A stretch of 64,000 nucleotides of DNA from Pseudoscardovia suis (GTDB lineage: Bacteria > Actinomycetota > Actinomycetes > Actinomycetales > Bifidobacteriaceae): positions 1 to 64,000 of the forward strand of contig NZ_PGFC01000003.1 in the NCBI RefSeq assembly GCF_002797875.1, written 5' to 3'. The position numbers were made by a program, and so were the translations under genes. Positions 14,199 through 49,967 of the stretch are shown in pieces. Position 1 is the first letter of the stretch, and the number at the start of each line of letters is the position of its first letter. The notes beneath the pieces were generated by a model. That model had not been told where the DNA came from. It saw only the letters and a list, made by a program, of their open reading frames with translations, and ran no database searches.

Positions 14199-15260
14199 TC
14201 ATTTGATGATCGGCGAATCGGCGCTGGACACGTTGATGTAGGTCAGGGAAGCGTAGCTGGCGTCGCCGGTGTCTTTCTTGCCTAGGATCGCCGATACCAC
14301 GCTTGCCTTGAATGCGATGTCGGAGGAATCACCCCACAGCACCGTCACGCCATCATCCATGACGGAGGTGATGGAGTCGCGTGTGGGAGCCGTGGTGCTC
14401 GTAACACGCGCCGCAAGCGCTGAACCAAGTCCGCCCAGCACTTTCACCGCTTGTGCCGTCGCCTCGTTATTAGAGACGGCATCCGCGGAATCCACGTCGA
14501 TGCGGGGAATGGAGGCGTATGCGGATTCATCGGCTTGTTTGACGAGTTGTTCGCCATCCTGCGTGACCGGCACCAAGGAATTGTCGGAGGTGACATGGAG
14601 GACGGCGGCAGGCTGGGCGCTGGTGAACGTCACGGCGAGGCCGTGGGGAAAACGCCGCTGCACCTTCACATCGCTCACGCCCACGATTGCGTCGAGTTTG
14701 GAAGCGATGCCGTGCGAGTCAACAAGCAGCAGCGACTTGCCATTGTCAGCGTCGACGATGGATTCAATCTGAGAGGCATCCACCCATTGGTTCGTTCCGG
14801 TGATGACAGCGGTGGATGCATCGTATCGAAACAGCGGCGAAAGAAACGCCGCCCATCCACAGCCTGCGACAATCAGCGCAACAAGCACAAGGATGAGAAT
14901 GCGTCGCACGATTCCATGAACCGCCGCTGTCTGCCGCTCCTTGCGCCTGCTGGGGAAATTCACGATCTTCGGCCGCACAAGCATGCCGGGATTGCCGCCG
15001 ATCCGCGGGTCTTCGATGCGTTCGGCGACCGACGGGCCAGGCTTGAGCTGACGGGCGTCGATGAATCCCTCGCTGGCTTGCGGGGAGACGAGAATGTCAT
15101 CCGCTGGCATGCGCGCAGGCGTGCTGGTGTCACCCGAGCGAACGCTGCGCGGCTCAGGATGGCGCGCAGCGTTGTTGCTTTGCGGTACCGGTCCGTTGGG
15201 AATCAGCGAATCGGCATCGTGCGCATCGGAGTGGTTCGACGATATGACGCGCCGGCTCAT
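14199..15260 (-). CDS. ftsQ: Cell division protein FtsQ
   Basis: Bitopic septum protein that links early and late division proteins. A long, probably disordered cytoplasmic region (about 1-120) is followed by one membrane segment (VRRILILVLVALIVAGCGWAAFL, about 122-145), a POTRA domain (YDASTAVITGTNQWVDASQIESIV region) and the FtsQ beta domain with KVQRRFPHGLAVTFTSAQPAAVL. ATG overlaps the murC stop as ATGA, so it is translationally coupled. It is the last gene of this dcw run; ftsZ does not follow it, which is unlike most actinobacteria. Confidence 0.93.
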   Translation of the reverse strand: MSRRVISSNHSDAHDADSLIPNGPVPQSNNAARHPEPRSVRSGDTSTPARMPADDILVSPQASEGFIDARQLKPGPSVAERIEDPRIGGNPGMLVRPKIVNFPSRRKERQTAAVHGIVRRILILVLVALIVAGCGWAAFLSPLFRYDASTAVITGTNQWVDASQIESIVDADNGKSLLLVDSHGIASKLDAIVGVSDVKVQRRFPHGLAVTFTSAQPAAVLHVTSDNSLVPVTQDGEQLVKQADESAYASIPRIDVDSADAVSNNEATAQAVKVLGGLGSALAARVTSTTAPTRDSITSVMDDGVTVLWGDSSDIAFKASVVSAILGKKDTGDASYASLTYINVSSADSPIIK

Positions 15261-16897
15261 GCGGCTCCGTTCGCCTCGGTGTCCGCGCCTGCAGCATCAG
15301 CGGCGCCGAAACGATCACGCAAAGCGGCAAGGATCGCGTCATCCATCGTGGTGATGCTTCCGGCGCCCACCGTGAAGATGACATCGCCGGGGCATGCGCG
15401 CGCCGCGATGTCCTGTGCAGCCTTGGCCATGTCAGGCTCTGCGCTAATCCACCCACCGCCGATGCCTTGCTGGTCCGCGGCATCAGGAATCGTGCGCTCG
15501 GTCACATCCGGCCAATCCTCCTGCTTCTCACGCGCCGGATAGATTCCGGTGACGATAACGTCATCGGCCTTGTGAAGGGCCTGTGCGAAACGGCTGGCGA
15601 AGAAATGGGTGCGGGAGAACAGGTGCGGTTGGAACACGACGCGCAGCTTCGCCTGCGGATAACGGCGGCGCGCGGCGTCCAGCAATGCAGCGATCTCCGT
15701 GGGATGATGCGCGTAATCGTCGATAAGCGTCACGCCGCCCACGACGCCCTTTATTTCGAAGCGTCGCGCCGCACCATAGAATTCACGGATGCCACGCACC
15801 GCATCCGCCGGGCGCATGCCCAGCAGCAGGCACGTGGTGATGGCGGCAGCGGCATTGCGCGCATTGTGGACTCCCGGCACTCGCAGTTCGACAGGCACCG
15901 AGAACGTGGGCTCCGCCTGCGTCTCGTACTCAGGAATCAAGGAGGCAGGGAACGTGAGGGTGAAATGCTCGGGGAAGTTCGCCGCGTCCGGGGATTCCTC
16001 GGACGCCACCTGCTCGCCCTTGGCGCTGACGGATTCATGGCCGATGCGCACAATGCGCACCGCGCCGAGATCGGGCAATTGCGTCGGATCCTGCGTCGTA
16101 TAAGCGACGGCACGCCGCTTCTCAGAATCATCAAGGCTGCGCAGCACCGCCAGCGCACCCGGATCGTCAGCGCATGCAACCACATGCCCGACGGCATGGT
16201 GGGCGTATTGCACGAACGCCTGCTGGAACGCATCCTTCGTCTGATAGTGATCCAGATGGTCCGCTTCCACATTCGTGATGACGGCGATGTAAGGATGATA
16301 CTTTTCGAAGCTGCCGTCGGATTCATCAGCCTCGGCGATCATCACATCGCCATGGCCGGCATGGCCGCCGTCGATGACGCCACGGCTTGTGCGCACGCTT
16401 CCGCCAATCGCATACGAGGGGTCGACGAGATTGCCAGAGCCTGCAGTCTCGAGAATCTGGGCGATCATGGCGCTTGTCGTCGTCTTGCCATGAGCGCCGG
16501 CAACCGTGACGGAGCGGTGGGAAGCAAGCAGCAGCGCGAGGATGTCGCTGCGATGCACCAAGTATTTGCCTTCCTTCACCGCTTCCTGGATCTCCGGATT
16601 GTCGGGCTTGATGGCGCTCGACCACACGACGGTCTTCGCGCCACGCACGTTCTCAGCCCGCTGCCCGTAATAAATGTGTGCGCCGAGCTTGGCAAGGTGG
16701 TTGGTGCGCACGGACTCCTCCCGGTCGGAACCGGAGACATCAACGCCTTGTTCCAGCATCATCTCGGCGAGCACGCTCATTCCTGCCCCGCCGATGCCAA
16801 TGAAATGAGTGCGCCCCAAATCCTCAAGATGAGCCTTCGCATAGGTGATTGGCTGGCTCGTCGGATCAAGAATGACGGATACACTACCCTGCGTCAT
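15257..16897 (-). CDS. murC: UDP-N-acetylmuramate--L-alanine ligase
   Basis: Adds the first amino acid to UDP-MurNAc in peptidoglycan synthesis, using ATP in the cytoplasm. Motifs: Rossmann THFIGIGGAGMSVLAEMM, P-loop VAGAHGKTTTSAMIAQ, EADESDGSF, NVEADHLDHY and IDDYAHHPTE. Start 16897 is chosen because GAGGAA precedes it and the Mur fold begins shortly after; an open frame continues further upstream but lacks a ribosome binding site. Length 546 aa is above the usual 460-490, with an acidic insert (KGEQVASEESPDAANFPE) before the C-domain. Coupled to ftsQ by a 4-bp overlap; murG lies 91 bp upstream. Confidence 0.95.
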   Translation of the reverse strand: MTQGSVSVILDPTSQPITYAKAHLEDLGRTHFIGIGGAGMSVLAEMMLEQGVDVSGSDREESVRTNHLAKLGAHIYYGQRAENVRGAKTVVWSSAIKPDNPEIQEAVKEGKYLVHRSDILALLLASHRSVTVAGAHGKTTTSAMIAQILETAGSGNLVDPSYAIGGSVRTSRGVIDGGHAGHGDVMIAEADESDGSFEKYHPYIAVITNVEADHLDHYQTKDAFQQAFVQYAHHAVGHVVACADDPGALAVLRSLDDSEKRRAVAYTTQDPTQLPDLGAVRIVRIGHESVSAKGEQVASEESPDAANFPEHFTLTFPASLIPEYETQAEPTFSVPVELRVPGVHNARNAAAAITTCLLLGMRPADAVRGIREFYGAARRFEIKGVVGGVTLIDDYAHHPTEIAALLDAARRRYPQAKLRVVFQPHLFSRTHFFASRFAQALHKADDVIVTGIYPAREKQEDWPDVTERTIPDAADQQGIGGGWISAEPDMAKAAQDIAARACPGDVIFTVGAGSITTMDDAILAALRDRFGAADAAGADTEANGAA

Positions 16898-16988
16898 CGC
16901 ATTCCTCGCTTCCATCGCTGGGGGTTTGTTTCCACTGTAGTCTGCCGCCGTGCAAGGCGTGTTTCTGTTTCCATGAAGCGTGACCATA

Positions 16989-18173
16989 CTACGCGTTCGC
17001 ACCGACGCGGGACGATGCGATGCGCAACACTTCCTGCGCCATCGCATCCGCTGCGTCACGGATGCCATATGACCATGCCGCCTTGCCCATCGCGTGCAGA
17101 CGGGTGCGGTCATGGACCAATGCCGGCACGTGCTGCTTCACCCAATCCGCGGTGAAATCAGCATCGTCGATGAGCAGCCCGCCGCCGGCGTCGACGACCG
17201 GCTGGGCGTTGAAACGCTGTTCGCCATTGCCAATGGGAAGCGGCACGTAGATGGCCGGCACGCCTAGGGCTGTGATTTCAGCGACGGTGCCAGCGCCGGA
17301 ACGGCAGATCACCAGGTCCGCGGCTGCAAACGCTTCGTCCATGCGCTCCCAGTATTCGGTCGCATGATAGCTGCCCTCGCTGGAATCCCCCAGGCCGCAG
17401 ATACGGCTCTCCCCCGCCACTGTCGCGACAGTGGAACGCACTGCGTCGATCTTGCCCTTGCCGGTCAGATGCACCACCTGCCCCAGATCAAGCAACGTGT
17501 CGGCGGCTTGAGACACAGCGTTGTTAAGGCTCAGTGCCCCCAAGGAGCCGCCGGTGACAAGGATCATCGGAAGCTGCGGGTCAAGTCCCAAGCGAATCTT
17601 CGCACTTGTGCGCGTCGTATCGCGATCCGCTTCGAGCTTGGCAGCCATCCGGGCAATCGGCTCACGCAACGGCAGGCCGACGCGGCGGATCGGAGCCGAG
17701 GATTTCAAGCCCGTGCCGTCGTACACCGTACCAATGAAGCTCGCCCATCGCGCCCCCAGCTTGTTGGCCATGCCGGCGCGCGCATTCTGTTCATGGATGA
17801 CGATGGGGATGCCCACCTTGTGCGCGGCGTAATACGCGGGCGCGGCAGCGTAGCCTCCCACGCCCACGACCACATCCGCCTGACGCTCGGCAAGGATGCG
17901 CCTCACCTTCGCGGTCTCCGCCTTCCACAACCCCGGGAAGCGGAACATGTAGCCGTTCGGCTTGCGTGGGAACGGGACTTTCTCGATTGTGTCCATCGGC
18001 AATCCCGCGGCGGGCACGAGCGTGGATTCCAGCCCCACCTGCGTGCCGATGACAGACAGACTCGCCTGCGGATCGCGACGAGCGATGGCTGCCGCTATGG
18101 ACAACAGTGGGTTGACGTGGCCTGCGGTGCCCCCGCCAGCCAGCACGATATGCACATTCCTTCTTCCAGACAT
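16989..18173 (-). CDS. murG: UDP-GlcNAc:lipid I GlcNAc transferase
   Basis: Peripheral membrane glycosyltransferase that makes lipid II. N-terminal [15 protein letters not shown], the [13 protein letters not shown] loop and the C-terminal [10 protein letters not shown] plus [24 protein letters not shown] motifs are all present. The start at 18173 ([15 protein letters not shown]) is preferred because AAGGTGG lies upstream; the frame above it has no support. Length 394 aa is normal. It lies between ftsW and murC in the standard order, 143 bp after ftsW. Confidence 0.96.
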
Positions 18174-18316
18174 GCCTACCACCTTATTACTTTCCTTGCC
18201 ACTTTCCCCAGAACATTCCCACATCAAGAATATTCCCTGACGAGTCCCACAAACTGCGATGTGCCTGCGACGTGCACGGATGCCACCTCGTCGCCGCACA
18301 GCCCAGCGAGGACGCG

Positions 18317-19927
18317 TCACCGCGATGTCACATTGCGAATCGCCGGAATGCGCCGCGCCTCATAGCACACGACTCCGCACGCTCCCATGCAGCAGATCAG
18401 CGAACTGCCGCCGGAGCTGAGGAACGGCAATGGCAGGCCAGTGACGGGGAACATCTCCACCACGACGGCGATATTGATGACCGCCTGGGGGATGATCCAG
18501 AAGAACACGGCGATGAGCGTGAGGCTGCCCACGACATGCGGATGGTTGAGCGCCATGATGACAAGGCACCAGCCCATGAGCGCGAACAGCAGGATGACGA
18601 ACAAGGCTCCCACGAATCCCAATTCCTCGCCGATGACCGCGAAGATGAAATCACTTTCGGCTTCCGGCAGGTAGTTCCATTTCTCATAGGAATTGCCCAG
18701 CCCCACGCCGCCGATACCGCCGGTGCTCAATGCATAGATGCCATGGATGACCTGATAGCAATTGCCCTGCAGGTCCGCGTCGGAAGCGGTGCATCCCTGG
18801 AACAGCATCTTGATACGGCTGATGCGGCTGGTGTTCAAGAACAGGGCGAACGTTCCCAAGACGACGATGGCGACAGCACCTACCTTGATCATCTTCCCCG
18901 GGATGCCTCCTGCGATCAGCACACCGAGGACGATGGTGATGAGGATGAGGCATGTGCCCATGTCCCTGGACACCCAGAAGACAAATCCAATCACCGCGAA
19001 AGACGCGACAAGCGGAACGAGCCAATTGATCAGATTGGAACGGTCGCGCGAGCGCTGCGCGTTGAAAACAAAAAGCGGCAGGACCGTGCACAAGGCAAGC
19101 TTGAGCAACTCCGCGGGCTGGAATTGCACACCGGCGATGGCAAGCCAGCTCTTGTTGCCCTGATACTCGACGCCGAAGATCATCAGGCCCAGCTGAGACA
19201 GCACAGCAATCGCCGCAAAGAACAGAACAACGACGCGATGGCCGTTTTTGATGTGACGACCGTGGAAGTTGATCATGAACAGCACCATCAACAGCAAGCC
19301 CAAGGCGATGAACTTGAGCTGCTCAAGCACCGCCGCGATAGGTGATTCACCTGCGGTGACGAGTTCCACGCTGGAGCTGGAATACACCATGACCAGGCCA
19401 AGCAGCGTAAGGGCCACGGCCGATGCGACGAAACCGAAATAGCAGTACACGGGATTGAGGAGGAACCTCCATCCGGTGTAATGCGACGTGGAGATCGCCG
19501 GAGTCTGGGCATCGTCCACATTGTCGAACGAATGTCTGACCACACACTGCGCGCGGCGCATCCATGATGCGGATGGGTCCGCGTCAGGCTTATAGGTGCT
19601 GCGCTGTGCCGCGTCTCCGCGCAGATTCACGCTACTGCCGCTGGCATCTTCCACAGCATCCGTTCGATCCGCGACACGTACACGGGGCCGCGGTGAGCTC
19701 CGCTTGGCAACCCGATGGTCGCGGTCGTCCAAGCGGCGTTTGCGCCGAGGAGCCGAGGCTGGGGTATCATCTGCCAAGCCTCGCCTCATGCGGTCGTATT
19801 CGGGCGAACCGAATTGCGGAGCGCGACGGCGCTGATCCGCCTCATCATCCCTGCCGCCACGTGAATTCACAGTGCGGCGTGGAGCATGATCCGCGCCTTG
19901 GGAATCGTCGCGCACATCACGCGCCAT
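18317..19927 (-). CDS. ftsW: Lipid II polymerase / division protein FtsW
   Basis: SEDS-family membrane glycosyltransferase that polymerises lipid II at the septum with FtsI. About ten membrane segments follow a long, charged, probably disordered N-terminus (about 150 residues, Arg/Asp-rich), longer than in most FtsW. Family signatures include [56 protein letters not shown] and the C-terminal [17 protein letters not shown] at 19927 lies inside the end of murD (11-bp overlap), so translation is probably coupled. Confidence 0.95.
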
Positions 19928-21422
19928 GCGCTTTCACCCACCCTTGCGCCGCGGTGGCGAACTTCTCGCCACGGTCGGCATATGAAACGAATTGGTCCAT
20001 CGATGCGCATGCTGGCGCCATGAGCACCACGTCACCGGGCTGTGCGATGCGGGCGGCTTCCTCCACGGCGCGTTCCATGACCGTGTCACGTGGCTCGGGG
20101 TCGATGAACGTCACGGGGATGTCCGGCGCCTGCGAGGCGAAAGCCTCGCGCATCGGCTGCTGATCCACGCCGATGATGACCGCGGCCTTGATCGTGTGCG
20201 CTTGGTCTCGCACCAAGTCCTCGAAGCGGGAGCCTTTGGCCAGGCCGCCGGCGATCCACACGACGGACTTGGGGGCATAGCTTGACAGCGACGCGTGCGC
20301 GGCGTGAGCGTTCGTCGCCTTCGAATCATCGACGAAGCGGATGTCTCCCTCGCCGGTGTGGGCGCTTGCCACGAGCTGGATGCGATGCCCGCCGGGTTCG
20401 AATGCCTTGAGCGCCTGCAGCGCGGTAAAGGAATTGACGCCCATGCCACGGGTGAGCGCATACGCGCACAGTGCGTCTGCCAGCAGATGCGGGTACACAG
20501 TGCCATCCGGCTCCGTCAGATGCGTAAAGTCGGTGACGCGGATGAGGTTCTCATGCGCCTGCTCGCTGCGCAGCGCGGACCTGTCGCACACCCAGCCGTC
20601 CTTCACACCGATCTGCCCGTCGCCCGGCTCATGGAGGGTGAAGCCGATGCGCATGCAATCGGGGCCTGTGACGGCCTGCTTGGCGAGCCGCACGACATTG
20701 GGATCGTCGGCATTGTATACAAGCGCGCGCTTCACGCCACGGTAGACCTTCGACTTGTCGTACATGTAGTTGGCGAATCCGCCGTGCCAGTCAAGATGGT
20801 CGTCGGCGAGGTTCGTGATCGCGGCGCAGTCAAGCGCCAGCCCTTCGGTGAAATGCAACTGGAACGAGCTGAGCTCCACAGCGAGCGCATCATTGGTCGG
20901 CACGACAGCCGCCTGAGACACCGGCACGCCGATGTTGCCCACCGCCGGAGCCTTGAGACGTGCGGCGGTGAGGATGGCGGACACCATCTGCGTGGTGCTC
21001 GTCTTGCCGTTCGTGCCGGTGATGCCGATCCATGGCGCGGGGCGTCCCGTCGCATGGGTCGTGCAACGCAGCAGCCAGGCGAGCTCGACTTCGGAGATCA
21101 CGGGGATGGAGCGGGATTGCGCGGTGACGATGAAATCGGCTTCCGGATGGAACACCGGCGACGTGATGACCAGGCCGATCTCATCCCAGGCCACGGCGTC
21201 AGAACTCGAGTAGGTGGATTCCGCCGGGCCTTCGTCGAGGGTGACGACGCGATGCCCTTGTGCGGCGAGCACGTCGCGCGCCGACCTTCCGGACACGCCC
21301 AGTCCGGCGACGAGCGCCGCCAAGCCTTTCGAATCCAATGAGTCGAGCGCTTCCTGTGCCTGTTCGAGGGTGGCGTTCGGCGGGAAGTTCTTCGTTCCCT
21401 CGGCGGTAACGGTATCAGTCAT
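19917..21422 (-). CDS. murD: UDP-MurNAc-L-Ala--D-glutamate ligase
   Basis: Adds D-glutamate to UDP-MurNAc-L-alanine. N-terminal [19 protein letters not shown]-loop [31 protein letters not shown] and the C-terminal [15 protein letters not shown] are the expected Mur ligase motifs in order. Length 501 aa is slightly above usual. Start 21422 has GAGGAGC upstream. It is placed between mraY (35 bp upstream) and ftsW, as in most dcw clusters. Confidence 0.96.
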
Positions 21423-21457
21423 TGTTGATGCTCCTCTGTGGTTATGTCGTCAGTGGA

Positions 21458-22564
21458 TCACAGGACGTGCGGCGAGTGGACGAGCCAGTTGCTGTAGAAG
21501 CACAGCGCGCCCACTATCGCGAACATCATCTCGATCATCCAGAAACGCACCACGACTTTGCTTTCCGACCATCCGCACAATTCGAAATGATGGTGGATGG
21601 GCGCCATCTTGAATACGCGCTTGTGCCGCGTGTGGAACACGGAAATCTGGATGACGTCGCTCATGGCCTCGATGACGAACAGGCCGCCGATGATGACGGC
21701 GAGCAGCTCCGTGTGCGTGGCGATGGACAGCGCGGCGAAAAGACCGCCCAAGGCGAGGGACCCGGTGTCGCCCATGAAGATGAGCGCCGGGTTCGTGTTG
21801 TACCACAGGAACCCGAAGCATGCGGCGAAGGCGCAACCTGCGATGATCGCAAGGTCACCGGGGTCGCTCACCGAATAGGTCATGCCAGCCTGCGCAGCCA
21901 TGGGCGCCAGGTGCTTCGTCTCCCAGAACGCGATGAAAGCGTAAGCGACGAAGGCGATCATGGAATTGCCGGTGCACAAGCCATCCAGTCCGTCCGTGAG
22001 GTTGAATGCGTTCGTCCATGCAGCCAGCAGGAAGTTCACCCAGATAACATACAGCACGACCGCCGCGACCTTGCCCAGGCCTTCGAAAGAGATGAGGGTG
22101 TGCTCGATTCCCGTGATGCCCGGATGCGTGGCGGACAGGCCATCGCGCTGCGGCAGGCAGACCGCGATGATGGCGAAAACCGTGGCGATGAGGATCTGCC
22201 CGATGAGCTTGCCATGGATTGACAGGCCTTCGTTCTGCTTCTTACGCACCTTCGCGAAATCATCGATGAAGCCCAGCGCTCCCATCGCCACCATGACGAA
22301 CAACACGAACAACGCCGTAATGGAGTACGGCGCGCCTTGCGTCAGATGGCGGTAGATGGCGGACACAAGCCATCCGAGCACGATGGATAGCACGATGACG
22401 ACGCCTCCCATCGTGGGCGTGCCGCGCTTGACCAAGTGGGATTGCGGGCCGTCCTGGCGAATGTACTGTCCGTAATGCAGCCTGTGCACCACGCGGATCA
22501 TGATGGGCGTGCCGATGAGCACGCCGACCAGCGACACCACGAAACCGATGATGAATGCAATCAT
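21458..22564 (-). CDS. mraY: Phospho-MurNAc-pentapeptide transferase
   Basis: Integral membrane enzyme that moves phospho-MurNAc-pentapeptide to undecaprenyl phosphate, giving lipid I. Ten membrane segments are expected in 368 aa. The signatures PTMGG near residue 50, NLTDGLDGLCTG (catalytic Asp region), FMGDTGSLALGG and HHHFELCGWSE are present. Start 22564 has GAGGACA upstream. It lies between murF (84 bp upstream) and murD. Confidence 0.97.
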   Translation of the reverse strand: MIAFIIGFVVSLVGVLIGTPIMIRVVHRLHYGQYIRQDGPQSHLVKRGTPTMGGVVIVLSIVLGWLVSAIYRHLTQGAPYSITALFVLFVMVAMGALGFIDDFAKVRKKQNEGLSIHGKLIGQILIATVFAIIAVCLPQRDGLSATHPGITGIEHTLISFEGLGKVAAVVLYVIWVNFLLAAWTNAFNLTDGLDGLCTGNSMIAFVAYAFIAFWETKHLAPMAAQAGMTYSVSDPGDLAIIAGCAFAACFGFLWYNTNPALIFMGDTGSLALGGLFAALSIATHTELLAVIIGGLFVIEAMSDVIQISVFHTRHKRVFKMAPIHHHFELCGWSESKVVVRFWMIEMMFAIVGALCFYSNWLVHSPHVL

Positions 22565-22648
22565 GGATGTGTCCTCTTCCGCTTCTCGCGATTGTGTCCG
22601 CGCCCGGCACAGAGGCCGGCCGCAACTTCCAAGTGTTTCAATTATCCC

Positions 22649-24220
22649 CTATGCACGGTGCGCCGTCACGGGCGACCATTTCGCAGCAAGCGCCGAAAGT
22701 CCGGACGCGTGCGAGCCTTTGAGCAGCACAACGCTGCCCTGGTGCGCCTTGGCGAGCCGGGCGACTTCCTCGGCCGCCTGGTCGGCGGAATGCACGAACG
22801 CCACATCCATGCGGCTGTGGCCATCGGCCTGCTGTGCGCCTTGTGCCAGGCAGGAGGCGAGTCGATCGAGGTTGGCATCGGCATCGCTTCCCACCGCCAC
22901 GAGCGCGTCCACGCCCAGATGGGCGCAGTATGCGCCAATGTCACGGTGCTTGGCCTCATCATCGTCACCGAGCTCCAGCATGGAGCCCAGCACCGCCACG
23001 CGGAACGGGCGGTCGCGGCGATCGCCCGCATGCCATGCCGCAAGGCCGTCGAGACCTGCCTTCATGGAATCGGGGTTGGCGTTGAACGAATCGTCGATGA
23101 GCGTGAATGCCGCCGGCACGACCGGGGGCTCCACGGTGGAAACCGCCATGCGGTGCGGGCTAGCGGCGCCCTGGGTCTCCAGCACCTGCACGATGGCGTC
23201 GAAAGGCACCCCCACCGTCAAGGCGGCGCATGCAGCGGCGAGCGCGTTCATCACGTTATGCCTGCCGCGCAATGCGAGCGTCACGCGATGCTCGTGCCCC
23301 GGCGCGACGAGGGTGAAGCTGGGGTGGTCCGTGTCGTCGACCTCGATGTCGCGCGCCCGCACATCGCACGTGTTGTTGGCTTCGTCAACGCCGAACCAGC
23401 GCACGGTGCGAGCCTGCGTCATGTCTGCCATCGTGGCGACGCGCGGATCGTCGGCGTTGAGCACGGCCACGCCATCGGTGGTCAGGGCCTGCACGATCTC
23501 GGCTTTAGCACGCCGGATGTTTTCGACGGAGCCGAATCCGCCCAGATGCGCGACGCCCACCTTCAGCACCACCGACACGTCCGGCGGCACGATGGAGGTC
23601 AGGTAACGGATCTCCCCCATTGCCGAGGCTCCCATTTCGGCGACGAGATACCGCGTGTCCTCCCCGACCTGCGTTGCCGTCAGGGGCAGGCCGATCTCAT
23701 TGTTGAACGAGCCGACCGGAGCCACCGTGCGCCCTTGGGTGCGGAGCATGGCGGCAAGAAGATCCTTCGTCGTCGTCTTGCCCACGGAACCGGTGATGCC
23801 CACCACCGTGAACGGATGGGGCGCGGCCGGATCGAATGGACCTGCGATGGCGGGTTTGCTACTCTCGTCGCGGCTAGCGGAATCATCGCCTTCGTCAGCG
23901 GCCACCGCAAAGCTGCGACGCAAGGCGACGTTGGCCTTCGCCACACGCCCCAACGCCGCCACGGTGTCGTCCACGACGATCTGCGGCACATCCACGTCCA
24001 CTTCATGGTTCACCAGTGCTGCCGTGGCGCCCGCCTTGGCCGCCTGCGCCACGAAATCGTGACCGTCGACGCGTTCCCCGCGGATCGCCACGAATAGGCT
24101 TCCCTGCCGTGCCTGGCGCGAATCCGTGCATACGGATGTCACGACGCCCTGCGCCCCGTCCGCATGCGCCACAGCCCCTTGCACAGCCTGGGCGAGCTCG
24201 CCCACCGTCATATCCATCAT
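22649..24220 (-). CDS. murF: UDP-MurNAc-tripeptide--D-Ala-D-Ala ligase
   Basis: Adds the D-Ala-D-Ala dipeptide to the muramyl tripeptide. An N-terminal Mur domain (DSRQARQGSLFVAIRGERVDGHDF) is followed by the P-loop GITGSVGKTTTKDLLAAML, then NNEIGLPLT, EMGASAMGEI and the C-domain with IDDSFNANPDSMKAGL. Length 523 aa. Three in-frame ATGs lie at the start; 24220 is reported, with AGGAAGG about 12 bases upstream, and 24211 is possible. A Ser/Asp-rich insert of about 25 residues precedes the P-loop. Confidence 0.95.
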   Translation of the reverse strand: MMDMTVGELAQAVQGAVAHADGAQGVVTSVCTDSRQARQGSLFVAIRGERVDGHDFVAQAAKAGATAALVNHEVDVDVPQIVVDDTVAALGRVAKANVALRRSFAVAADEGDDSASRDESSKPAIAGPFDPAAPHPFTVVGITGSVGKTTTKDLLAAMLRTQGRTVAPVGSFNNEIGLPLTATQVGEDTRYLVAEMGASAMGEIRYLTSIVPPDVSVVLKVGVAHLGGFGSVENIRRAKAEIVQALTTDGVAVLNADDPRVATMADMTQARTVRWFGVDEANNTCDVRARDIEVDDTDHPSFTLVAPGHEHRVTLALRGRHNVMNALAAACAALTVGVPFDAIVQVLETQGAASPHRMAVSTVEPPVVPAAFTLIDDSFNANPDSMKAGLDGLAAWHAGDRRDRPFRVAVLGSMLELGDDDEAKHRDIGAYCAHLGVDALVAVGSDADANLDRLASCLAQGAQQADGHSRMDVAFVHSADQAAEEVARLAKAHQGSVVLLKGSHASGLSALAAKWSPVTAHRA

Positions 24221-24300
24221 CTGGAATGTCCGCCTTCCTCATTGACGCCGGCGTTGATACCGGCGCGAGTGTCTTGTAAAGTCCTAAAGTCCGTGGTCTG

Positions 24301-25200
24301 TCAGGCGAAGTCCTGCACGACGCGCAACGCATTGCGAATACCGGATTTCTTGATTCCCGCCTGCATGACCATCGCCACCGCTATCGACAGTTCGCTGATG
24401 CCGAGGTCGTCTCCGCTGGTCACGTTCTCGCGGGCGATCTCGTCGGAATCGCCGGTGCGTCCGGTGGCGTGCGTGTTTTCGGTTATCTGCGGGGCATAAT
24501 CCGCCAGCGCGGCGACCATCTCGTCATGCAAGGTGCGAGAGCCGTCCTTGGCGCCATGGTCGGTGAGTCCACACACATCGACGCTCACGCCTGCGAGTGA
24601 CCCCGGGGCGAGAGTGTCGCCGCTGGCATCAATGACGACGGACGTGGCGCCGTCCTCCACGGCGGAGACCAGCACGGATTCCACCTGCAGGCCGCCGATG
24701 GGATACGAAAACACAAGGTCACGTTCCAAGGAATACGAATTGCCCGCGCTGATCAGACCGACGGGATTGCCCAACACGTGCAACAGGTCCGCCAACGCCT
24801 CGGCAGATCCGGCGGATTGCGATCCGCTCACGGTGAAGATCGCCAGCTGATTTGCGGGGTTTCCCGCCATGCGCGCCGCCAACGATGACAGTTCCGTCGC
24901 ACTCGGGTCACCAAAAAGCAGGGGGATGTCCGGGTCCCCCGATGCATACGCAGGCTTGAGCGCCGAGGGAAGCAGCACTGCGTAGGCTCCGCGATCAGCT
25001 GCCGCCGTGATGACATCAGGCGTGACATGCATGCCTTTGCCCGCTATGAACAACGCGCCCGGGGTCACGGACTGCAGATCGTCAGCCAGCGATGTCACGG
25101 TGACCGGAGCGGCCTGTCCCGAGCCGATGTCAAGCCCAAGGATCCGCCCCAGGTCTCCGATTGTCGTGCGTTCCGTTGTCGATTCGCTTAACGAACCCAT
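24301..25200 (-). CDS. MurE-like protein lacking the ATP-binding loop and ligase C-domain
   Basis: It sits where murE belongs, between ftsI and murF. The N-terminal part resembles the MurE domain that holds the UMP moiety (VTSLADDLQSVTPGALFIAG, then ADRGAYAVLL). The central part follows MurE order, but the P-loop is replaced by FTVSGSQSAGSAEALADLL (no Gly-Lys-Thr), the MEVSSHAL motif reads VVIDASGDTLAPGS, and the DHLDFHG region reads GLTDHGAKDGS. The C-terminal domain is absent: 299 aa against about 480-520. Catalysis is therefore very unlikely. The frame is intact with AAGGAGC before ATG 25200, so it is a maintained gene rather than debris. A structural or regulatory role is an inference. 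Confidence 0.75.
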   Translation of the reverse strand: MGSLSESTTERTTIGDLGRILGLDIGSGQAAPVTVTSLADDLQSVTPGALFIAGKGMHVTPDVITAAADRGAYAVLLPSALKPAYASGDPDIPLLFGDPSATELSSLAARMAGNPANQLAIFTVSGSQSAGSAEALADLLHVLGNPVGLISAGNSYSLERDLVFSYPIGGLQVESVLVSAVEDGATSVVIDASGDTLAPGSLAGVSVDVCGLTDHGAKDGSRTLHDEMVAALADYAPQITENTHATGRTGDSDEIARENVTSGDDLGISELSIAVAMVMQAGIKKSGIRNALRVVQDFA

Positions 25201-25319
25201 CGCGCTGCTCCTTGCTGGTGATGCATGGCCTTGTGTCCGTGACGGGGATGGCGCTTGGCGCGGCATCCGCCTTCACCGAGCAATCCTACCGCGTCGTATC
25301 CACGACGGGCTTGCCCCAT

Positions 25320-25349
25320 GCGACGGCCATCCGTGCGACGGCCATCCGC
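25320..25349. repeat. 15-bp direct tandem repeat
   Basis: GCGACGGCCATCCG plus one variable base occurs twice in the 188-bp gap between ftsI and the MurE-like gene. Confidence 0.85.
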
Positions 25350-25388
25350 GCCCCTGCTATCACCGATGTGTGGCATTCCCATCGCGGC

Positions 25389-27275
25389 TCACCATTTCAC
25401 GGGAATCGCATCCGTGCGAGCCGGTGACTGCGGGACCTTGTATTTTTGCATGAGGAACTGGCCGATCTTCGCCGTCACCGGACCGGAAGTCCAGGCACCT
25501 TCGGTTCCCGCCGGGTCCTTCATGAACACGCTGACGACGAACTTGGGGTCGTTCGCCGGCAGTGCGATGATGTAGTCGGCGACGATGCTCGAAAGCGAGC
25601 CGTCATCGCCAGCCACCTGCGCGGTTCCGGACTTGGAGGCAAAACGGTAGCCGGGAATCGAATCCCATTTGTTGTCTTTTTCGGCGACGCTTTCCATGGC
25701 GTTGAGCGTGTTGGCGGCGGCGGATTCATCGACGACGCGTGTCGTTTCGTTGACGGAAGGCGTCACGTCCGTGCCATTGGCATCGGTGGCGGATTCGATG
25801 AGCGACTGCCCCAGGCGGACTCCCCCGTTGGCGATCGTGGCAACGACGTTCGTCATCTGCAATGCGGTGACCGCGTAGCCTTGACCGAACAGCACAACGT
25901 TCTGCGTGCGGCCGTCCCACTGGGAGTAGTCGCTGAGCAGACCGGAGGTGGCACCGGGGAAATTGATGCCTGAATCCTGGCCAATGCCGAACTTTCTGAG
26001 GTATTCATAACGCTTTTCCAACGAATACCCGCTCGATTCCATGATCGTGCCCACGTTGGAGGAATAGCACAGGATGCCGGCGCTCGTGAGGTGCCATACG
26101 GAGTGTGCCTCGGCGTCCTTGTATGTCTGGCCGTCCACGCTAATCGTGTTGGGTATCGTGAACTGGTTGGTCGGCTCCTGCAAGCCTTCCTGGTAGAGCG
26201 CCGCCGTGGTGATGACCTTGCCTGTTGAACCCGGTTCGAACGTCTGGGTCATCGCAAGCGATGCGGTTGTCTTGGCCTCGTCGCTGCCGGCCGTGATGTC
26301 CTGGCTGTCGGCAATGGCGAGGATCTTGCCAGTGGAGACCTCTTGCACGACGGCTACGCCCCATTTGGCTTTCTGGCTGGTCACGCCTTCCTTGAGGGCC
26401 TGCTCGACGTACCATTGCACATCGCTGTCTATCGTGAGTTTGACGGTGCCGCCGTTCAACGCCTGCGACGCGTCAGTCTGCGTGCCGGGGATCCGCTCGC
26501 CGGTCAGTGCCTGCTGATACGTGGTCGAGCCATCCTGACCTTGCAAGGCATCGTTCATCATGAGCTCGATACCGGCGACGCCCGTCCCTTCGTCGTCCAC
26601 GCCACCCAGCACGTCTCCCAGCAGCGTGCCATCGGGATACTGGCGCTGGGATGTGCTTTCGAAACCGATGACGGTGGAAAGATGGAGAGCCTCGACCTGT
26701 TGCTTGAGCTGAGGGGTGACGTTCTTTTGCAGCACGACGTACGAGCTGGTGCCGGCGAGTTCGCCGCCCAGCTCCATCTCGCTGACGCCCAGCAACGGGG
26801 CGAGCAGTTCCGCCACTGCCTCGACGCCCGTGGCATCAGGGTTCGATGTGCTGTCCATATTCTGGCAGATGGAGGAATTGGTGCCGGTGCATTTGACGGG
26901 TTTGAACGCCGCAGCGCCATTCTGGTCGGCATACATCGTGTAGCGTTCCACGGATTGCGCAAGCACCTGGCCGTTCGTGTCGACGATTTCGCCTCGGGTG
27001 CCGTGGGTCACGACGGTCACCGTGCGAGATGCCGTCGCCTGCTGTGCCACGGATGCCCCGCCGAGCTGGAAACCGGCGAGCCTGACCACGCAGAAAGTGG
27101 CATAGATTGCAATCAGCACGCAGACGACCACGACGCGCTTGAGCATGGAGTTCCATGGCAAATGCAAGAAACCGGATATCGAGCGGCGCGACGTGGCCTT
27201 GCGCCGGCCATGGGAATCCTGTGAATCCTGCGGATTGTGCGAGTCATGGGAACCGGTCATTGTCGACCTTGTCAT
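25389..27275 (-). CDS. ftsI: Septal peptidoglycan transpeptidase (PBP, FtsI type)
   Basis: Class B penicillin-binding protein that cross-links septal peptidoglycan. One membrane segment (RVVVVCVLIAIYATFCVVRL, about 47-66) is followed by a pedestal domain with GTRGEIVDTNGQVLA and the transpeptidase domain. The catalytic Ser is in FEPGSTGKVIT, SxN is CYSSNVGT and the KTG-like motif is FASKSGTAQV. Length 628 aa. ATG 27275 overlaps the upstream stop as ATGA; a second ATG at 27260 is also possible. Two extra Cys (KCTGTNSSICQ) in the pedestal could form a disulphide outside the cell. Confidence 0.94.
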   Translation of the reverse strand: MTRSTMTGSHDSHNPQDSQDSHGRRKATSRRSISGFLHLPWNSMLKRVVVVCVLIAIYATFCVVRLAGFQLGGASVAQQATASRTVTVVTHGTRGEIVDTNGQVLAQSVERYTMYADQNGAAAFKPVKCTGTNSSICQNMDSTSNPDATGVEAVAELLAPLLGVSEMELGGELAGTSSYVVLQKNVTPQLKQQVEALHLSTVIGFESTSQRQYPDGTLLGDVLGGVDDEGTGVAGIELMMNDALQGQDGSTTYQQALTGERIPGTQTDASQALNGGTVKLTIDSDVQWYVEQALKEGVTSQKAKWGVAVVQEVSTGKILAIADSQDITAGSDEAKTTASLAMTQTFEPGSTGKVITTAALYQEGLQEPTNQFTIPNTISVDGQTYKDAEAHSVWHLTSAGILCYSSNVGTIMESSGYSLEKRYEYLRKFGIGQDSGINFPGATSGLLSDYSQWDGRTQNVVLFGQGYAVTALQMTNVVATIANGGVRLGQSLIESATDANGTDVTPSVNETTRVVDESAAANTLNAMESVAEKDNKWDSIPGYRFASKSGTAQVAGDDGSLSSIVADYIIALPANDPKFVVSVFMKDPAGTEGAWTSGPVTAKIGQFLMQKYKVPQSPARTDAIPVKW

Positions 27276-27958
27276 TGCGCCTGCCCCTGCGCCGATGCAT
27301 CCGATGAGGCGTTGCCGGAATCCGTGGCGTCATGGGAGGCCGTCGACGATTGGCTACCCTGCCCCATGTCAAGGGTGACGGAACCGGAACCGGGCACCAT
27401 GCCCATTTGCGTCGCCTTGTTGGGAAGGTCTGCGTTGAGCTGTTCCAGCTGTAGTTCGTCCGCCTCCACATCCTGCTGCAGCTGCGAGATGTTCTGCTTC
27501 GTGGTGCTCAGCGTGAACGAATCCTCGATCATCAGCGTGCGCAGCGTCAATGCTCCGGACATCGACGCCACAAGAACCACGATGGCGATGACAACGCGCA
27601 GCATGGGCTTGCTCACATGCCGCGCCCACGAGGCCGGGGACGCGATGCGATGCTTCGTGGCGTCCGCCTCGTTGTCGATGACGCGCAGCGCCGGCCTGCT
27701 GGCGGTCTTGGACTGGCGGCGGCCGTCGGCATGCGAGTCGGGGCGGCGTTCCGGCTTGAGACGAGGCATTGCCGATCCCCTCGCCGCCATGGGGGCACGC
27801 ACGGCTCCATGTGCCGATGTGGCCGATGTGATGGATGACGAGGCTATGCGGCGCTGCGATTGGCGTGCCGCCGCCTCGGTGGCCCCGGACATATGCGCGG
27901 TGCCTCCATGCTGGCGTGCCTCAGAACGTGCAGGACGTGGTTGCGCTGCCGATGTCAT
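27272..27958 (-). CDS. ftsL: FtsL-like bitopic division protein
   Basis: Small membrane protein in the position of ftsL. A long, basic, disordered cytoplasmic part (about 1-115) is followed by one membrane segment (MLRVVIAIVVLVASMSGALTL, about 118-140), then a short predicted coiled coil (TKQNISQLQQDVEADELQLEQLNADLP) and a Gly/Ser/Asp-rich tail. FtsL is poorly conserved, so the name rests on topology and place between rsmH and ftsI. It overlaps both neighbours by 4 bp (ATGA), which fits tight co-translation. Confidence 0.75.
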   Translation of the reverse strand: MTSAAQPRPARSEARQHGGTAHMSGATEAAARQSQRRIASSSITSATSAHGAVRAPMAARGSAMPRLKPERRPDSHADGRRQSKTASRPALRVIDNEADATKHRIASPASWARHVSKPMLRVVIAIVVLVASMSGALTLRTLMIEDSFTLSTTKQNISQLQQDVEADELQLEQLNADLPNKATQMGMVPGSGSVTLDMGQGSQSSTASHDATDSGNASSDASAQGQAQ

Positions 27959-29205
27959 CGTCGTGGCATCCTTTCCTTTGCGGAATGAGAGAAGTGTGAG
28001 GAATTGTGGTTGGTGTGCGAGGAGCGGTGTGCGCGCTCACGGGGACTTCGTCCCTTGGCGCCGGCGGGGCCTGCAGCCTCCCCACGCGCGAATCCCGCGT
28101 AGCCGGCATCCACCAGTTCGGCGAGTCCCTGTCGCCTCGCCGGCGGAATCGGCCGTATGAGTTCCACGGCGCGCAGTCTGACGGAGGACGATCGGGGGTT
28201 GCGTTGCCGCTCCGTCTCATCCGCTTTGATGGCTCCATGGGTCAGGTCCTTGAAGTATGGCTGCGCATCCTGGGGCACGACCGGCAGGTCGGCCGGGGCG
28301 TCGATGTGCAATCCCAATGACATGAAACGCTTGACGGTGCGGTCTTCGAGCGAATGGTAGGATTCGACGACCAACCGTCCTCCGACGGCGAGATGGAGAG
28401 CCGCCTGCGGCAATGTGCCGGCGAGTTTGTCAAGCTCACCGTTGACTTCGATGCGCAGCGCCTGGAACACCCTTTTGGCGGGATTGCCCGGCGCACGGTG
28501 CGCGCGCGGCACCGTGCGGTCGACGAGACGGGACAATTGCGCAGATGTCGTGATGGGCGATTCGCGGCGTTCCTCGCCGATGCGCTTGGCGATGGGACCG
28601 GCGAAACGCTCCTCGCCGTATTCCTTGAAGATCTGGCGCAGCCGGTCCGTGTCGTAAGTGTTGAGCACATCGGCCGCAGTGAGGGTCTGCGTCGTGTCCA
28701 TGCGCATATCCAGCGGAGCGTCATGGGAGTATGAGAAGCCGCGGTCCGCCTCGTCTATCTGCAGGCTTGACAATCCAAGGTCCATGAACACCGCGTCCAC
28801 GCGGGCAACACCCAAGCGATCAAGCACATCGGAGAGTTCATCGAAGGCGGCGTGCACCGGGGTGAAGCGATCGGACAGGCCGGCGTCATCCATGCGGCGC
28901 GTCGCGAGCGCCAGGGCCTCTGGATCGCGATCGATGCCAATGAGGCGAGCCTCAGGGCAGGCTTTGAGGAATGCCATCGAATGCCCTGCCAATCCCAAGG
29001 TGCAATCGACGATGATGGGGTGTTCGCCGGCAGGGCTGCCGGCATGGTGACGCTCGACAAGGCGGGACGTGACCAGGTCCACGCAATCGTCAAGCAGCAC
29101 GGGGGTATGGATCGCCGACAGGTCGGCGTTGGCGCCAACGCCGTCCTGTGTTCCGCCGCCGATCCGGCCGCCGGTCTGGCAATCATCCGGCTTGTGCAAT
29201 TCCAT
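27955..29205 (-). CDS. rsmH: 16S rRNA (cytosine-1402 N4) methyltransferase
   Basis: Methylates C1402 of 16S rRNA using S-adenosylmethionine. IHTPVLLDDCVD, VDCTLGLAGHS (SAM loop), LIGIDRDPEAL, DAVFMDLGLSSLQIDEADRGFSY, RVFQALRIEVNGEL and VESYHSLEDRTVKRF are family hallmarks. The C-terminal tail of about 60 residues is Arg/Ser/His-rich and not part of the fold. GTG (29208) and ATG (29205) are adjacent; ATG is reported. Both overlap the mraZ stop. Its position directly after mraZ is standard. Confidence 0.96.
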   Translation of the reverse strand: MELHKPDDCQTGGRIGGGTQDGVGANADLSAIHTPVLLDDCVDLVTSRLVERHHAGSPAGEHPIIVDCTLGLAGHSMAFLKACPEARLIGIDRDPEALALATRRMDDAGLSDRFTPVHAAFDELSDVLDRLGVARVDAVFMDLGLSSLQIDEADRGFSYSHDAPLDMRMDTTQTLTAADVLNTYDTDRLRQIFKEYGEERFAGPIAKRIGEERRESPITTSAQLSRLVDRTVPRAHRAPGNPAKRVFQALRIEVNGELDKLAGTLPQAALHLAVGGRLVVESYHSLEDRTVKRFMSLGLHIDAPADLPVVPQDAQPYFKDLTHGAIKADETERQRNPRSSSVRLRAVELIRPIPPARRQGLAELVDAGYAGFARGEAAGPAGAKGRSPRERAHRSSHTNHNSSHFSHSAKERMPRR

Positions 29206-29732
29206 CACAGGTCCCCCAAGGGGAGGATGTCATCCGCCATGTCGGAATAATCATCCTCCTGTTCGTTCAAATACGTTTCCCATGTGGGTCTATCCCACAC
29301 TTCGGCGCGCGTCCCCACGCCGATGACGACGATGTCGCCCGTCAGCCCCGCGTAGTCGCGCAGCATCTGAGGCACCATGACGCGCCCCTGCTTGTCGGGC
29401 ACTTCATCCACCGCCCCCGACAGGAACACGCGCAGGTAGTTTCGCGCACGCTTGTCGGACAGTGACGTGCGTTGCACCTGTGCGGCGATGCGGCGAAATT
29501 CCGGGATGGGCAGCAGATACACGCACCGTTCCTGACCTCGGGCAAGCACACAGCCCGCACCCAACTGAGACCGGAACTTCGCCGGAAGTGCGACGCGACC
29601 CTTGGCATCGATCTTGGGGGTGTAGGTGCCCAACAGCAACGCAGGCATGAGCGATGATTCGCCAGCAACCGCAGCATCAGGCGCAGGAGCGCCGATGGAG
29701 ACGGCTTGCGACTCATGGGTGTCGTCGTCCAA
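29205..29732 (-). CDS. mraZ: Transcriptional regulator MraZ, TTG start
   Basis: DNA-binding regulator of the dcw cluster and of its own gene, related to AbrB-fold proteins. Two MraZ repeats are seen: LLLGTYTPKIDAKGRVALPAKFR and the second ending in DKQGRVMVPQMLRDYAGL. The TTG at 29732 is chosen because a strong GGGGAGG lies six bases upstream; this gives 175 aa with about 28 extra residues before the usual LLLGTY. ATG 29648 would give the typical length, but no ribosome binding site precedes it. Overlaps rsmH by the stop codon. Confidence 0.9.
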   Translation of the reverse strand: MDDDTHESQAVSIGAPAPDAAVAGESSLMPALLLGTYTPKIDAKGRVALPAKFRSQLGAGCVLARGQERCVYLLPIPEFRRIAAQVQRTSLSDKRARNYLRVFLSGAVDEVPDKQGRVMVPQMLRDYAGLTGDIVVIGVGTRAEVWDRPTWETYLNEQEDDYSDMADDILPLGDL

Positions 29733-29770
29733 GTTGCACCTCCCCAAGCACGCCAGTAACCGCAATCTTT

Positions 29771-47087: not shown

Positions 47088-48421
47088 AGCCTGGGCAGGT
47101 ACTTCTTGAGTTCGTACGGCGTGACCTGGAGCCTGTATTCGTTCCATTCCTGACGCTTGTTGCGCAGGAAGTACTCGAACACATGCTCGCCGAGCACGTC
47201 AGCTACGAAATCGGACTTTTCCATGACCTTCAAAGCGGTGTCGAGGGAATCCGGCAACGGCTGGATGCCCATCGCCTGACGCTCCGCGTCCGTGAGCTCC
47301 CACACGTCATCGCTCGTGGGGTCGCCCAACTCCATTTTCTTGTCGATGCCGTCGAGACCGGAAGCCAGCAGCAGCGAATACGCAAGGTAGGGGTTGGCGA
47401 CAGGGTCGAGCGCACGGTACTCCATGCGGGACGAATTGCCTTTGCCGGGCTTGTACTGCGGAATGCGCAGCAATGCGGAACGGTTGTTGTGACCCCAGCA
47501 GATGTAGCTAGGAGCCTCTGCCCCGCCCCACAGACGCTTGTACGAATTGACGTACTGGTCGCACACTGCGGTGATCTCCGCGGCATGATACAGGATGCCG
47601 GCAGCGAACTGGCGCGCGGTCTGGGACATGTTGAATTCCTGACCGGCTTCGTAGAAGGCGTTCTCGTCGCCTTCGAACAGCGACATGTGCGTGTGCATGC
47701 CCGAACCCGGCTGGTCGGTCATCGGCTTGGGCATGAACGACGCGCTGATTCCGCGTTCCAGCGAAATCTCCTTGACGACGGTACGGAACGTCATGATGTT
47801 GTCGGCGGTAGCCAATGCATCGGCGTAACGCAGGTCGATTTCGTTCTGTCCGGGACCGGCCTCATGGTGGGAGTATTCGACGGAGATGCCCATTTGCTCG
47901 AGAAGGTTCACCGTCGCGCGACGGAAGTCCATGCCAGGGCTGCGCGGCACATGGTCGAAATAGCTTCCCTGATCGATGGGCGTGGGCGGCACGGAGAAAT
48001 CATCCTGCTTTTCAAACAGGTAGAACTCAATCTCCGGATGCGTGTAGAACGTGAAGCCCTTTTCTTTTGCCTTGCCGAGCGTGCGCTTGAGCACGTAACG
48101 GGGGTCGCCGAGCGATGGCGAGCCTTCGGGCGTGAGCACATCGCAGAACATGCGTGCCGTGCCCTGGGGGCCGCCGCGCCACGGCAGAATCTGGAAGGTC
48201 GCGGGATCGGGTTTGGCGATCATGTCGTCCTCCGACACGCGCGTCAGTCCTTCCACCGCAGAACCATCGAAGCCCAATCCTTCTTCGAAGGCCGATTCGA
48301 GTTCCGCAGGTGCGATGGCGACGGACTTCAGCTGTCCGAGCACATCGGTGAACCACAGACGGATGAAGTGGACGTCTCGCTCCTCCACGGTGCGCATGAC
48401 GAACTCTTGCTGTTTATTCAT
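47084..48421 (-). CDS. glnA: Glutamine synthetase, type I
   Basis: Makes glutamine from glutamate, ammonia and ATP; a dodecamer is expected. The beta-grasp N-domain (RTVEERDVHFIRLWFTDVLGQLKSVAI) and GFDGSAVEG are present. Catalytic motifs include EIEFYLFEK, EYSHHEAGPGQNEIDL, MPKPMTDQPGSGMHTHMSL and RIPQYKPGKGNSSRMEYRALDPVANPYL. Length 445 aa is that of the GSI-alpha type, and no NLYDLP adenylylation motif is visible, so adenylyl control is unlikely. It is preceded by hisA (110 bp) on the same strand. Confidence 0.95.
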   Translation of the reverse strand: MNKQQEFVMRTVEERDVHFIRLWFTDVLGQLKSVAIAPAELESAFEEGLGFDGSAVEGLTRVSEDDMIAKPDPATFQILPWRGGPQGTARMFCDVLTPEGSPSLGDPRYVLKRTLGKAKEKGFTFYTHPEIEFYLFEKQDDFSVPPTPIDQGSYFDHVPRSPGMDFRRATVNLLEQMGISVEYSHHEAGPGQNEIDLRYADALATADNIMTFRTVVKEISLERGISASFMPKPMTDQPGSGMHTHMSLFEGDENAFYEAGQEFNMSQTARQFAAGILYHAAEITAVCDQYVNSYKRLWGGAEAPSYICWGHNNRSALLRIPQYKPGKGNSSRMEYRALDPVANPYLAYSLLLASGLDGIDKKMELGDPTSDDVWELTDAERQAMGIQPLPDSLDTALKVMEKSDFVADVLGEHVFEYFLRNKRQEWNEYRLQVTPYELKKYLPRL

Positions 48422-48530
48422 AAAGCCTATTTTCCTCCGCTAATGTTGCGGGCGCTTTAACATTCGGTGAGCGTGGCTTCACATTGTTGCGCTATGCGCC
48501 GCGCGCGAACGCCCGGGAAGCGCCCTGGGG

Positions 48531-49253
48531 TCAGGCGCGGGCGACTTCCAGGGCCTGCGGCAGCGTGAAGGCCTTCGCGTACAGCGACTTGCCCAGGATC
48601 GCAGCGTCGACGTTGCCGCCGATCGCGGCGATGTTGCGGATGTCCTCGAGGCTGGAGATGCCGCCCGATGCGGTGACCTTCGCATCCGTGCGTTCTGCGA
48701 CTTCGCGCAGCAGGTCGCAGTTGGGGCCGCTCATCATGCCATCACGGGACACGTCGGTCACCACGTAGCGGGAGCAACCGGCCTTGTTGAGCATGTCGAT
48801 CGTCTCGAAGAGGTCACCGCCTTCCTTCGTCCAGCCACGGGCGGCAAGCGTGTGGCCCCTCACGTCGAGGCCCACTGCCACGCGATCGCCCCATTGTGCA
48901 ATGGCCTGTGCGGTCCATTCGGGGTTCTCGAGCGCAGCCGTGCCGATGTTGACGCGCGCGGCGCCTGCCTCAAGCGCAGCATTGAGCGAATCGTCATCGC
49001 GGATTCCGCCCGACAGTTCGATCTTGACCTTGCTGCCGAGCGTGGCGACAATCTGCCCCAGCTGGTCACGGTTATTGCCTGTGCCGAACGCCGCGTCAAG
49101 ATCGACGAGGTGAATCCATTCCGCACCTTCGTCAACCCAGGTCTGGGCGGCTTCGAGCGGGCTGCCGTAGTCCGTTTCGGAGCCGGATTCTCCCTGACGC
49201 AGGCGCACGGCCTTTCCGTAGCGCACATCCACAGCGGGAAGCAACGTGATCAT
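48531..49253 (-). CDS. hisA: Phosphoribosyl isomerase A (HisA/PriA)
   Basis: TIM-barrel isomerase of histidine synthesis. [21 protein letters not shown] holds the first catalytic Asp; the second Asp is in [14 protein letters not shown]. The C-terminal phosphate-binding loops are [10 protein letters not shown] and [11 protein letters not shown]. In many actinobacteria this protein (PriA) also performs the TrpF step of tryptophan synthesis; the sequence is of that type, but dual activity cannot be read directly. Length 240 aa is normal. It lies 58 bp after hisH. Confidence 0.93.
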
Positions 49254-49310
49254 GTCAATCCTTTCTTTTGCGGCTTTCGACAGCCCTTCATTGCAGCTTT
49301 ATGCGGCGCA

Positions 49311-49967
49311 TCAACGCGCGGTCGCGAAGGAATCCACCCAGTTGCGCAACAGCGTGGCGCCGGCCTGTGCGGACTTCTCCGGATGGAATTGCGTGATGGA
49401 CAGCGGTCCGCGTTCCACCGCTGCGGCGAAACGCGAAGAACCATAGTCACACCATGTCACCTTGAATTCGTCATCGGGCTCAAACAGCCCCTGCACCCTG
49501 CCTTCAGGCGTCGGGTCGCTGACGCAATACGAATGGACGAAGTAGAAGCGTTCGCGCTCCACTCCTTTGAGAAGCGTGGAACCAGCGGCGGCATCCACGG
49601 TGTTCCATCCCATCTGCGGCACAACGGGTGCCTTGAGCTGGCGGACCGACCCGCCGAGTACTCCAAGTCCTTCCGCCGGCACTCCCCCTTCGTAACCGGT
49701 GTCGAACATGACCTGCAGTCCGACGCACACACCGAGCACAGGCTTGCGCTCCCGCAATCTGTCGTAGACCATGTCGTCGCCACCGGCGCGGCGCAGCCCT
49801 TCGACACACGCGGCGAAAGCGCCCACGCCAGGCACGACGACACCGTCGGCGGCCATGGCCTTGTCCACATCGGATGTCAGTTCCACATCCACGCCCAGGT
49901 TCGCCACTGCACGCACCATGGAACGCACGTTGCCAAAACCGTAATCAAACACAACGATCGAGGTCAT
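49311..49967 (-). CDS. hisH: Imidazole glycerol phosphate synthase, amidotransferase subunit
   Basis: Releases ammonia from glutamine for the HisF partner, which is not in this window. VFDYGFGNVRSMVRAV, the nucleophile Cys in LGVCVGLQVMFD, VPQMGWNTVD, FYFVHSYCV and the final His/Glu pair in ITQFHPEKSAQAG are all present. Length 218 aa is normal. ATG 49967 has a strong AAGGAGG. Confidence 0.96.
   Translation of the reverse strand: MTSIVVFDYGFGNVRSMVRAVANLGVDVELTSDVDKAMAADGVVVPGVGAFAACVEGLRRAGGDDMVYDRLRERKPVLGVCVGLQVMFDTGYEGGVPAEGLGVLGGSVRQLKAPVVPQMGWNTVDAAAGSTLLKGVERERFYFVHSYCVSDPTPEGRVQGLFEPDDEFKVTWCDYGSSRFAAAVERGPLSITQFHPEKSAQAGATLLRNWVDSFATAR

Follow-up and report, generated by a model that had tools for sequence, protein, structure and literature searches.

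Results

Gene content and boundaries at the locus

The present study analyzes the murE slot of the dcw cluster in a window of 64,000 nucleotides of Pseudoscardovia suis DNA (contig NZ_PGFC01000003.1, positions 1 to 64,000). The slot holds a gene, here called pMurE, for a MurE-derived pseudo-ligase, and ftsI, pMurE and murF all lie on the minus strand (Table 1). The longest open reading frame opens at 25266, but the alignment with homologues begins at the ATG at 25200, which is preceded by a Shine-Dalgarno sequence, and the interval in Table 1 is therefore taken as the gene. A purine-rich site is found upstream of the start in most pMurE homologues. The slot, intact frame and ribosome binding site described in an earlier reading of the sequence alone (the sequence-only reading) were all recovered.

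Table 1. Features of the pMurE locus; positions are those of the window.
Feature	Position	Strand	Basis or remark
dcw cluster mraZ-mraW-ftsL-ftsI-pMurE-murF-mraY-murD-ftsW-murG-murC-ftsQ	14199..29765	minus	Complete cluster; ftsL named from position alone
ftsI	25389..27275	minus	Upstream neighbour of pMurE; strongest rate covariation
Shine-Dalgarno AAGGAG	25208..25213	minus	7 nt before pMurE ATG
pMurE, 299 aa	24301..25200	minus	ORF, homologue alignment, MurE profile matches
Place of MurE UDP-binding loop, residues 52-62	25015..25047	minus	Alignment with dcw MurE
P-loop remnant SGSQSAGS (for TGTNGKTT), residues 125-132	24805..24828	minus	Alignment
LLHVLGNPVG, residues 139-148	24757..24786	minus	Alignment of 28 pMurE
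VVIDASGDTL at place of MEVSSHAL, residues 188-197	24610..24639	minus	Alignment
C-terminal helix pair, residues 271-299	24304..24390	minus	Corresponds to end of MurE ATPase domain; ends before PGRME
murF	22649..24220	minus	Downstream neighbour of pMurE; intact three-domain ligase

Relationship to MurE

All significant NCBIfam matches of pMurE were to MurE models (E down to ~1e-14, residues 35-213), and these profiles reach no further than the N-terminal domain and one half of the ATPase domain, with the N-terminal UDP-substrate domain detectable from about residue 34 on. The TIGR01085 score was 46 bits against a curated cut-off of 257. Pfam gave no Mur match in any of 28 pMurE homologues, and has no family for pMurE itself. 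By profile-profile comparison the match was strongest to actinobacterial dcw MurE (E=1.6e-18, probability 99%), followed by the active MurE of Bifidobacteriaceae (E=1.3e-7), MurF (E=5e-7) and MurD (E=0.016); pairwise BLAST found no significant match between pMurE and the active MurE of Bifidobacteriaceae. The best solved matches by sequence were M. tuberculosis MurE (2wtz) and then the plastid PAP11/MurE-like protein (8r5o). The C-terminal helix pair is weak taken alone (probability 24%); pairwise BLAST against one actinobacterial MurE recovered both blocks in order (E=3e-8 and 0.007). In the tree pMurE was placed with dcw MurE on a long branch with support of 47, and an AU test rejected none of four pMurE positions; the AlphaFold model, built from three sequences only, reached a pLDDT of 41. 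Judged by gene position and profiles, the ancestry of pMurE is from dcw MurE. It shares with the dcw MurE of other Actinomycetales, of which the solved M. tuberculosis enzyme is a relative, the slot between ftsI and murF and an alignable N-terminal domain and half ATPase domain, but has 299 residues as opposed to about 540 and is without the P-loop, MEVSS motif, UDP loop and ligase C-domain.

Loss of catalytic and substrate sites

The extent of this loss was assessed by comparing residues of 28 aligned pMurE homologues with those of 22 actinobacterial dcw MurE. In the UDP loop (GxxxHGA) the glycine and histidine are invariant in the 22 dcw MurE and kept in 7% and 4% of pMurE, respectively, and nothing comparable is conserved at this loop among the pMurE homologues. 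The serine of DSR is present in 4% of homologues and the TTP threonines are lost in nearly all 28. Only the glycine of the P-loop is kept, with the lysine and threonine lost in most homologues, and the glutamate of MEVSS is kept in 4%. The DHLDFHG block has been lost, as has part of the ATPase domain, and pMurE stops just before the PGRME hinge, so that the ligase C-domain, which carries the amino-acid specificity motif, is missing. The replacement of the ATP loop, the altered MEVSSHAL (here VIDASGDTL) and DHLDFHG motifs and the missing C-domain, all claimed by the sequence-only reading, were thus confirmed. Because residues of the P-loop, MEVSS, TTP, DSR and UDP loop are lost in nearly all homologues, binding of ATP and of the UDP-substrate by pMurE both appear unlikely, and the lost residues suggest that the protein is non-catalytic.

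The N-terminal domain of true MurE binds UDP, and since this domain is still recognizable in pMurE by sequence profile, the protein could be a sensor or sequesterer of UDP-MurNAc peptides that regulates precursor flow. Binding of UDP-MurNAc substrates had indeed been among the functions first proposed, but it is disfavoured by the loss of the GxxxHGA loop, the DSR serine and the TTP motif, and we regard a sensor as distinctly improbable.

Newly conserved residues

While most positions shared with MurE are glycines, prolines, alanines and leucines of a structural kind, the alignment of pMurE contains invariant residues of its own. The leucines, histidine, glycine, asparagine and proline of an LHxLGNP motif are invariant in all 28 sequences, with H141 and N145 found in none of the 22 dcw MurE, and Y73, S157 and R160 are also invariant or nearly so and never or hardly occur in MurE. 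Read from the alignment, conservation of this kind is typical of a protein that has come under a new constraint. An alternative explanation could be a new enzymatic activity centred on these invariant positions (H, N, Y, S and R), several of them polar and new with respect to MurE; however, they form no recognizable active-site pattern, and LHxLGNP falls, in the alignment, on the loop that follows the P-loop helix, which on the known fold would face away from the nucleotide site, making a new enzyme improbable.

Distribution and selection

pMurE was present in 177 of 189 Bifidobacteriaceae genomes and in every one of those of good quality (161/161). The 12 genomes without it are all incomplete, and most come from genera that have not been cultured; a MurE with an intact GTDGKT loop is present in those of genera g4 and g5 that were examined. 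In the order-level search, scores were at least 243 bits within the family and at most 94 bits outside it, the latter in frames of MurE length, and no counterpart was found outside Bifidobacteriaceae; a scan of viral contigs also yielded no relative. Gene order around pMurE is constant in 41 dissected clusters apart from losses, with ftsI-pMurE-murF in 39 and mraW-pMurE-murF left in the two that have lost ftsI. Among informative pairs of relatives dN/dS was 0.04-0.38, in most pairs similar to or below that of murF. The proposed check of conservation and dN/dS therefore found the gene neither absent nor frameshifted in good genomes of relatives, and under purifying selection, and the proposal of a MurE-like pseudo-ligase retained in the dcw cluster is well supported by near-universal presence and the MurE profile matches. 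A literature search covering sources other than subscription journals found no earlier description of pMurE, and the gene is not named in the main text of the B. breve TraDIS paper (PMC5514069).

Loss of the catalytic parts is what a decaying pseudogene would show, but this explanation is contradicted by strong purifying selection and by retention in all good genomes across many genera, including genomes of 0.6-0.9 Mb, and has next to no probability. It could also be that the protein itself does little and that the gene is a translational spacer or leader setting MurF dosage, as pMurE is always directly upstream of murF and overlaps the murF start in the reduced lineage g12. The two genes are, however, 80 nt apart in the window, and the low dN/dS together with invariant residues across homologues of ~30% identity indicates protein-level selection beyond what a spacer would need. 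A role in dosing MurF, raised in the sequence-only reading, found no support here, the rate covariation with MurF being -0.15, and a spacer is very unlikely. We are highly confident that pMurE is a functional, selected, non-catalytic descendant of MurE.

A working MurE at another locus

It had been predicted that a true murE must lie elsewhere, and a full-length MurE with GTKGKTT and MEVSSQAY was found in the same genome at about positions 47940-49586 of another contig (G000:C6). Its best score was with NF001129, a model that its curators named after diaminopimelate, and the score with NF010628, an L-lysine ligase model, was high as well. The subtype differs from that of dcw MurE and is probably Lys/Orn, given the missing DNPR, the FemAB-like gene upstream and general knowledge of bifidobacterial wall types. 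This FemAB/acetyltransferase-like gene (L040:2727-3923, G000:C6) ends 17 nt upstream of the active murE, an arrangement that an interpeptide bridge module would be expected to show. An NF001129-type match is present in all 161 good genomes with pMurE. The active MurE and pMurE belong to the same ligase family and occur in the same cells, but the active copy is full length, of another subtype and at a different locus, and subtype and position suggest that it was apparently imported from outside the lineage.

In several species the active MurE is tandemly duplicated (G009:C29; G090, G113, G118). In one congener (G002) the MurE is of a different type, with GTKGKTT and DNPR (L041:4238-5782, G002:C4), and pMurE is kept all the same; no strong NF001129-type MurE was found in this 87% complete genome, possibly reflecting a second displacement of MurE or a gap in the assembly.

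Discussion

Rate covariation and a reduced lineage

The partners of pMurE were approached through rate covariation, a correlative measure taken on a fixed species tree with 37 genomes (one per species) and 55 protein pairs. The pMurE-FtsI pair was the highest of the 55 at 0.59, next to 0.57 for the known FtsI-FtsW pair, and MraY (0.35) and FtsW (0.30) were the only other clearly positive partners of pMurE, values for MurD, MurC, MurG and the active MurE being about zero. With fast lineages dropped, FtsI-pMurE was still first of the 55 pairs, and within two genera alone MraY led (0.48), followed by FtsI (0.41); FtsI, MraY and FtsW led for pMurE in both subsets, with FtsI-pMurE 7th of 55 in one of them.

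The reduced lineage g12, with genomes of 0.6-0.9 Mb, has a cluster of mraW-pMurE-murF-mraY-murD-murG-murC (G014:C7:100700-120500; G026) without ftsI, ftsW, ftsQ and mraZ, and its pMurE retains the LHxLGNP motif. Genome-wide searches of six g12 genomes gave a single SEDS protein and two transpeptidases each, as opposed to two and at least three in the others tested, and these six retain FtsZ. The lineage thus appears to be without FtsW and FtsI genome-wide, while keeping FtsZ and one SEDS/PBP pair. Since g12 has lost both FtsI and FtsW and yet keeps pMurE, these two are not the sole partner, and MraY is the one covarying partner found in all clusters examined.

The main rival to a role near MraY is that pMurE takes the place of MurE in Mur complexes, as scaffold or activator of the cytoplasmic Mur enzymes (MurF, MurD, MurG and the active MurE). 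pMurE adjoins murF, the cluster left in the reduced lineage without FtsI and FtsW consists largely of such genes, and a MurE-MurF fusion that binds MurG exists in B. pertussis (PMC6420597). No positive rate covariation was found with MurF, MurD, MurG or the active MurE, however; no binding among the Mur ligases of M. tuberculosis was observed (PMC3605390), and pMurE is kept even in the congener with a different MurE. Scaffolding had been suggested from the outset, and covariation points to FtsI, MraY and FtsW as its object rather than to MurF or MurD. We consider a cytoplasmic scaffold unlikely, although less so than the other rivals.

Origin and possible role

A working MurE of another subtype lies elsewhere, and the dcw copy is conserved with its catalysis lost, and for these reasons displacement of the native MurE, with the remnant kept for a non-catalytic job, is the scenario we infer. 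An ancestor of the Bifidobacteriaceae would have gained an additional MurE, differing in subtype (probably Lys/Orn) and today found in an operon-like arrangement behind the FemAB-like gene. In the dcw copy the ability to bind ATP and substrate, together with the ligase domain, would afterwards have disappeared, and the remnant may have been retained as a dedicated protein of non-catalytic function, with LHxLGNP, Y73, S157 and R160 as invariant residues of its own. Given the presence of MraY in all clusters examined and the covariation with FtsI, MraY and FtsW, an adaptor at the step of MraY and the septal synthase is favoured. Such an adaptor could tether the making of precursors to the membrane in the vicinity of MraY and, in lineages that have it, of the FtsW-FtsI septal synthase, so that a docking role of MurE would be preserved apart from its chemistry. 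Mur ligases of M. tuberculosis, including MurE, have been reported to bind FtsZ, FtsW, FtsQ, Wag31 and a SepF homologue (PMC3605390). For pMurE itself the docking partners are a suggestion. Taken whole, a displaced native MurE now acting as adaptor at the MraY/septal synthase step is a tentative reading, with chances somewhat short of even. A stronger form, in which pMurE serves the wall machinery of bifidobacteria (MraY and septal synthase) as a dedicated docking subunit and the structural role was split off when the imported enzyme took over catalysis, is rather doubtful. If it is true, deletion of pMurE would break the link between precursor supply and septal synthesis, and the gene may be essential and specific to Bifidobacteriaceae.

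There is a long-standing debate on whether the Mur ligases work in a physical complex. A catalysis-dead MurE kept across a family would separate the structural from the catalytic role of these enzymes, and one deletion in a tractable Bifidobacterium would put the question to the test. pMurE is, moreover, a candidate essential gene of unknown function in important gut bacteria, found family-wide and lacking a Pfam entry, and would be a clear case in which one enzyme displaces another and the remnant is reused. The PAP11/MurE-like protein of the plastid-encoded RNA polymerase (8r5o) is likewise a MurE relative recruited to a different complex (PMC9456514), but it is a plant protein of 768 aa, its match keeps the GTNGKTT loop, and it is no dcw remnant. 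MurT of the MurT/GatD pair resembles pMurE by description, as a Mur-ligase-like protein that serves peptidoglycan in a different way, but belongs to a catalytic amidotransferase complex.

Long open frames at some homologues (997 and 657 aa) were considered as possible ftsI fusions and rejected as GC-rich read-through. Some genera have pMurE with long low-complexity inserts, up to ~100 aa, positioned between the ATPase-like portion and the C-terminal helices or near the P-loop remnant.
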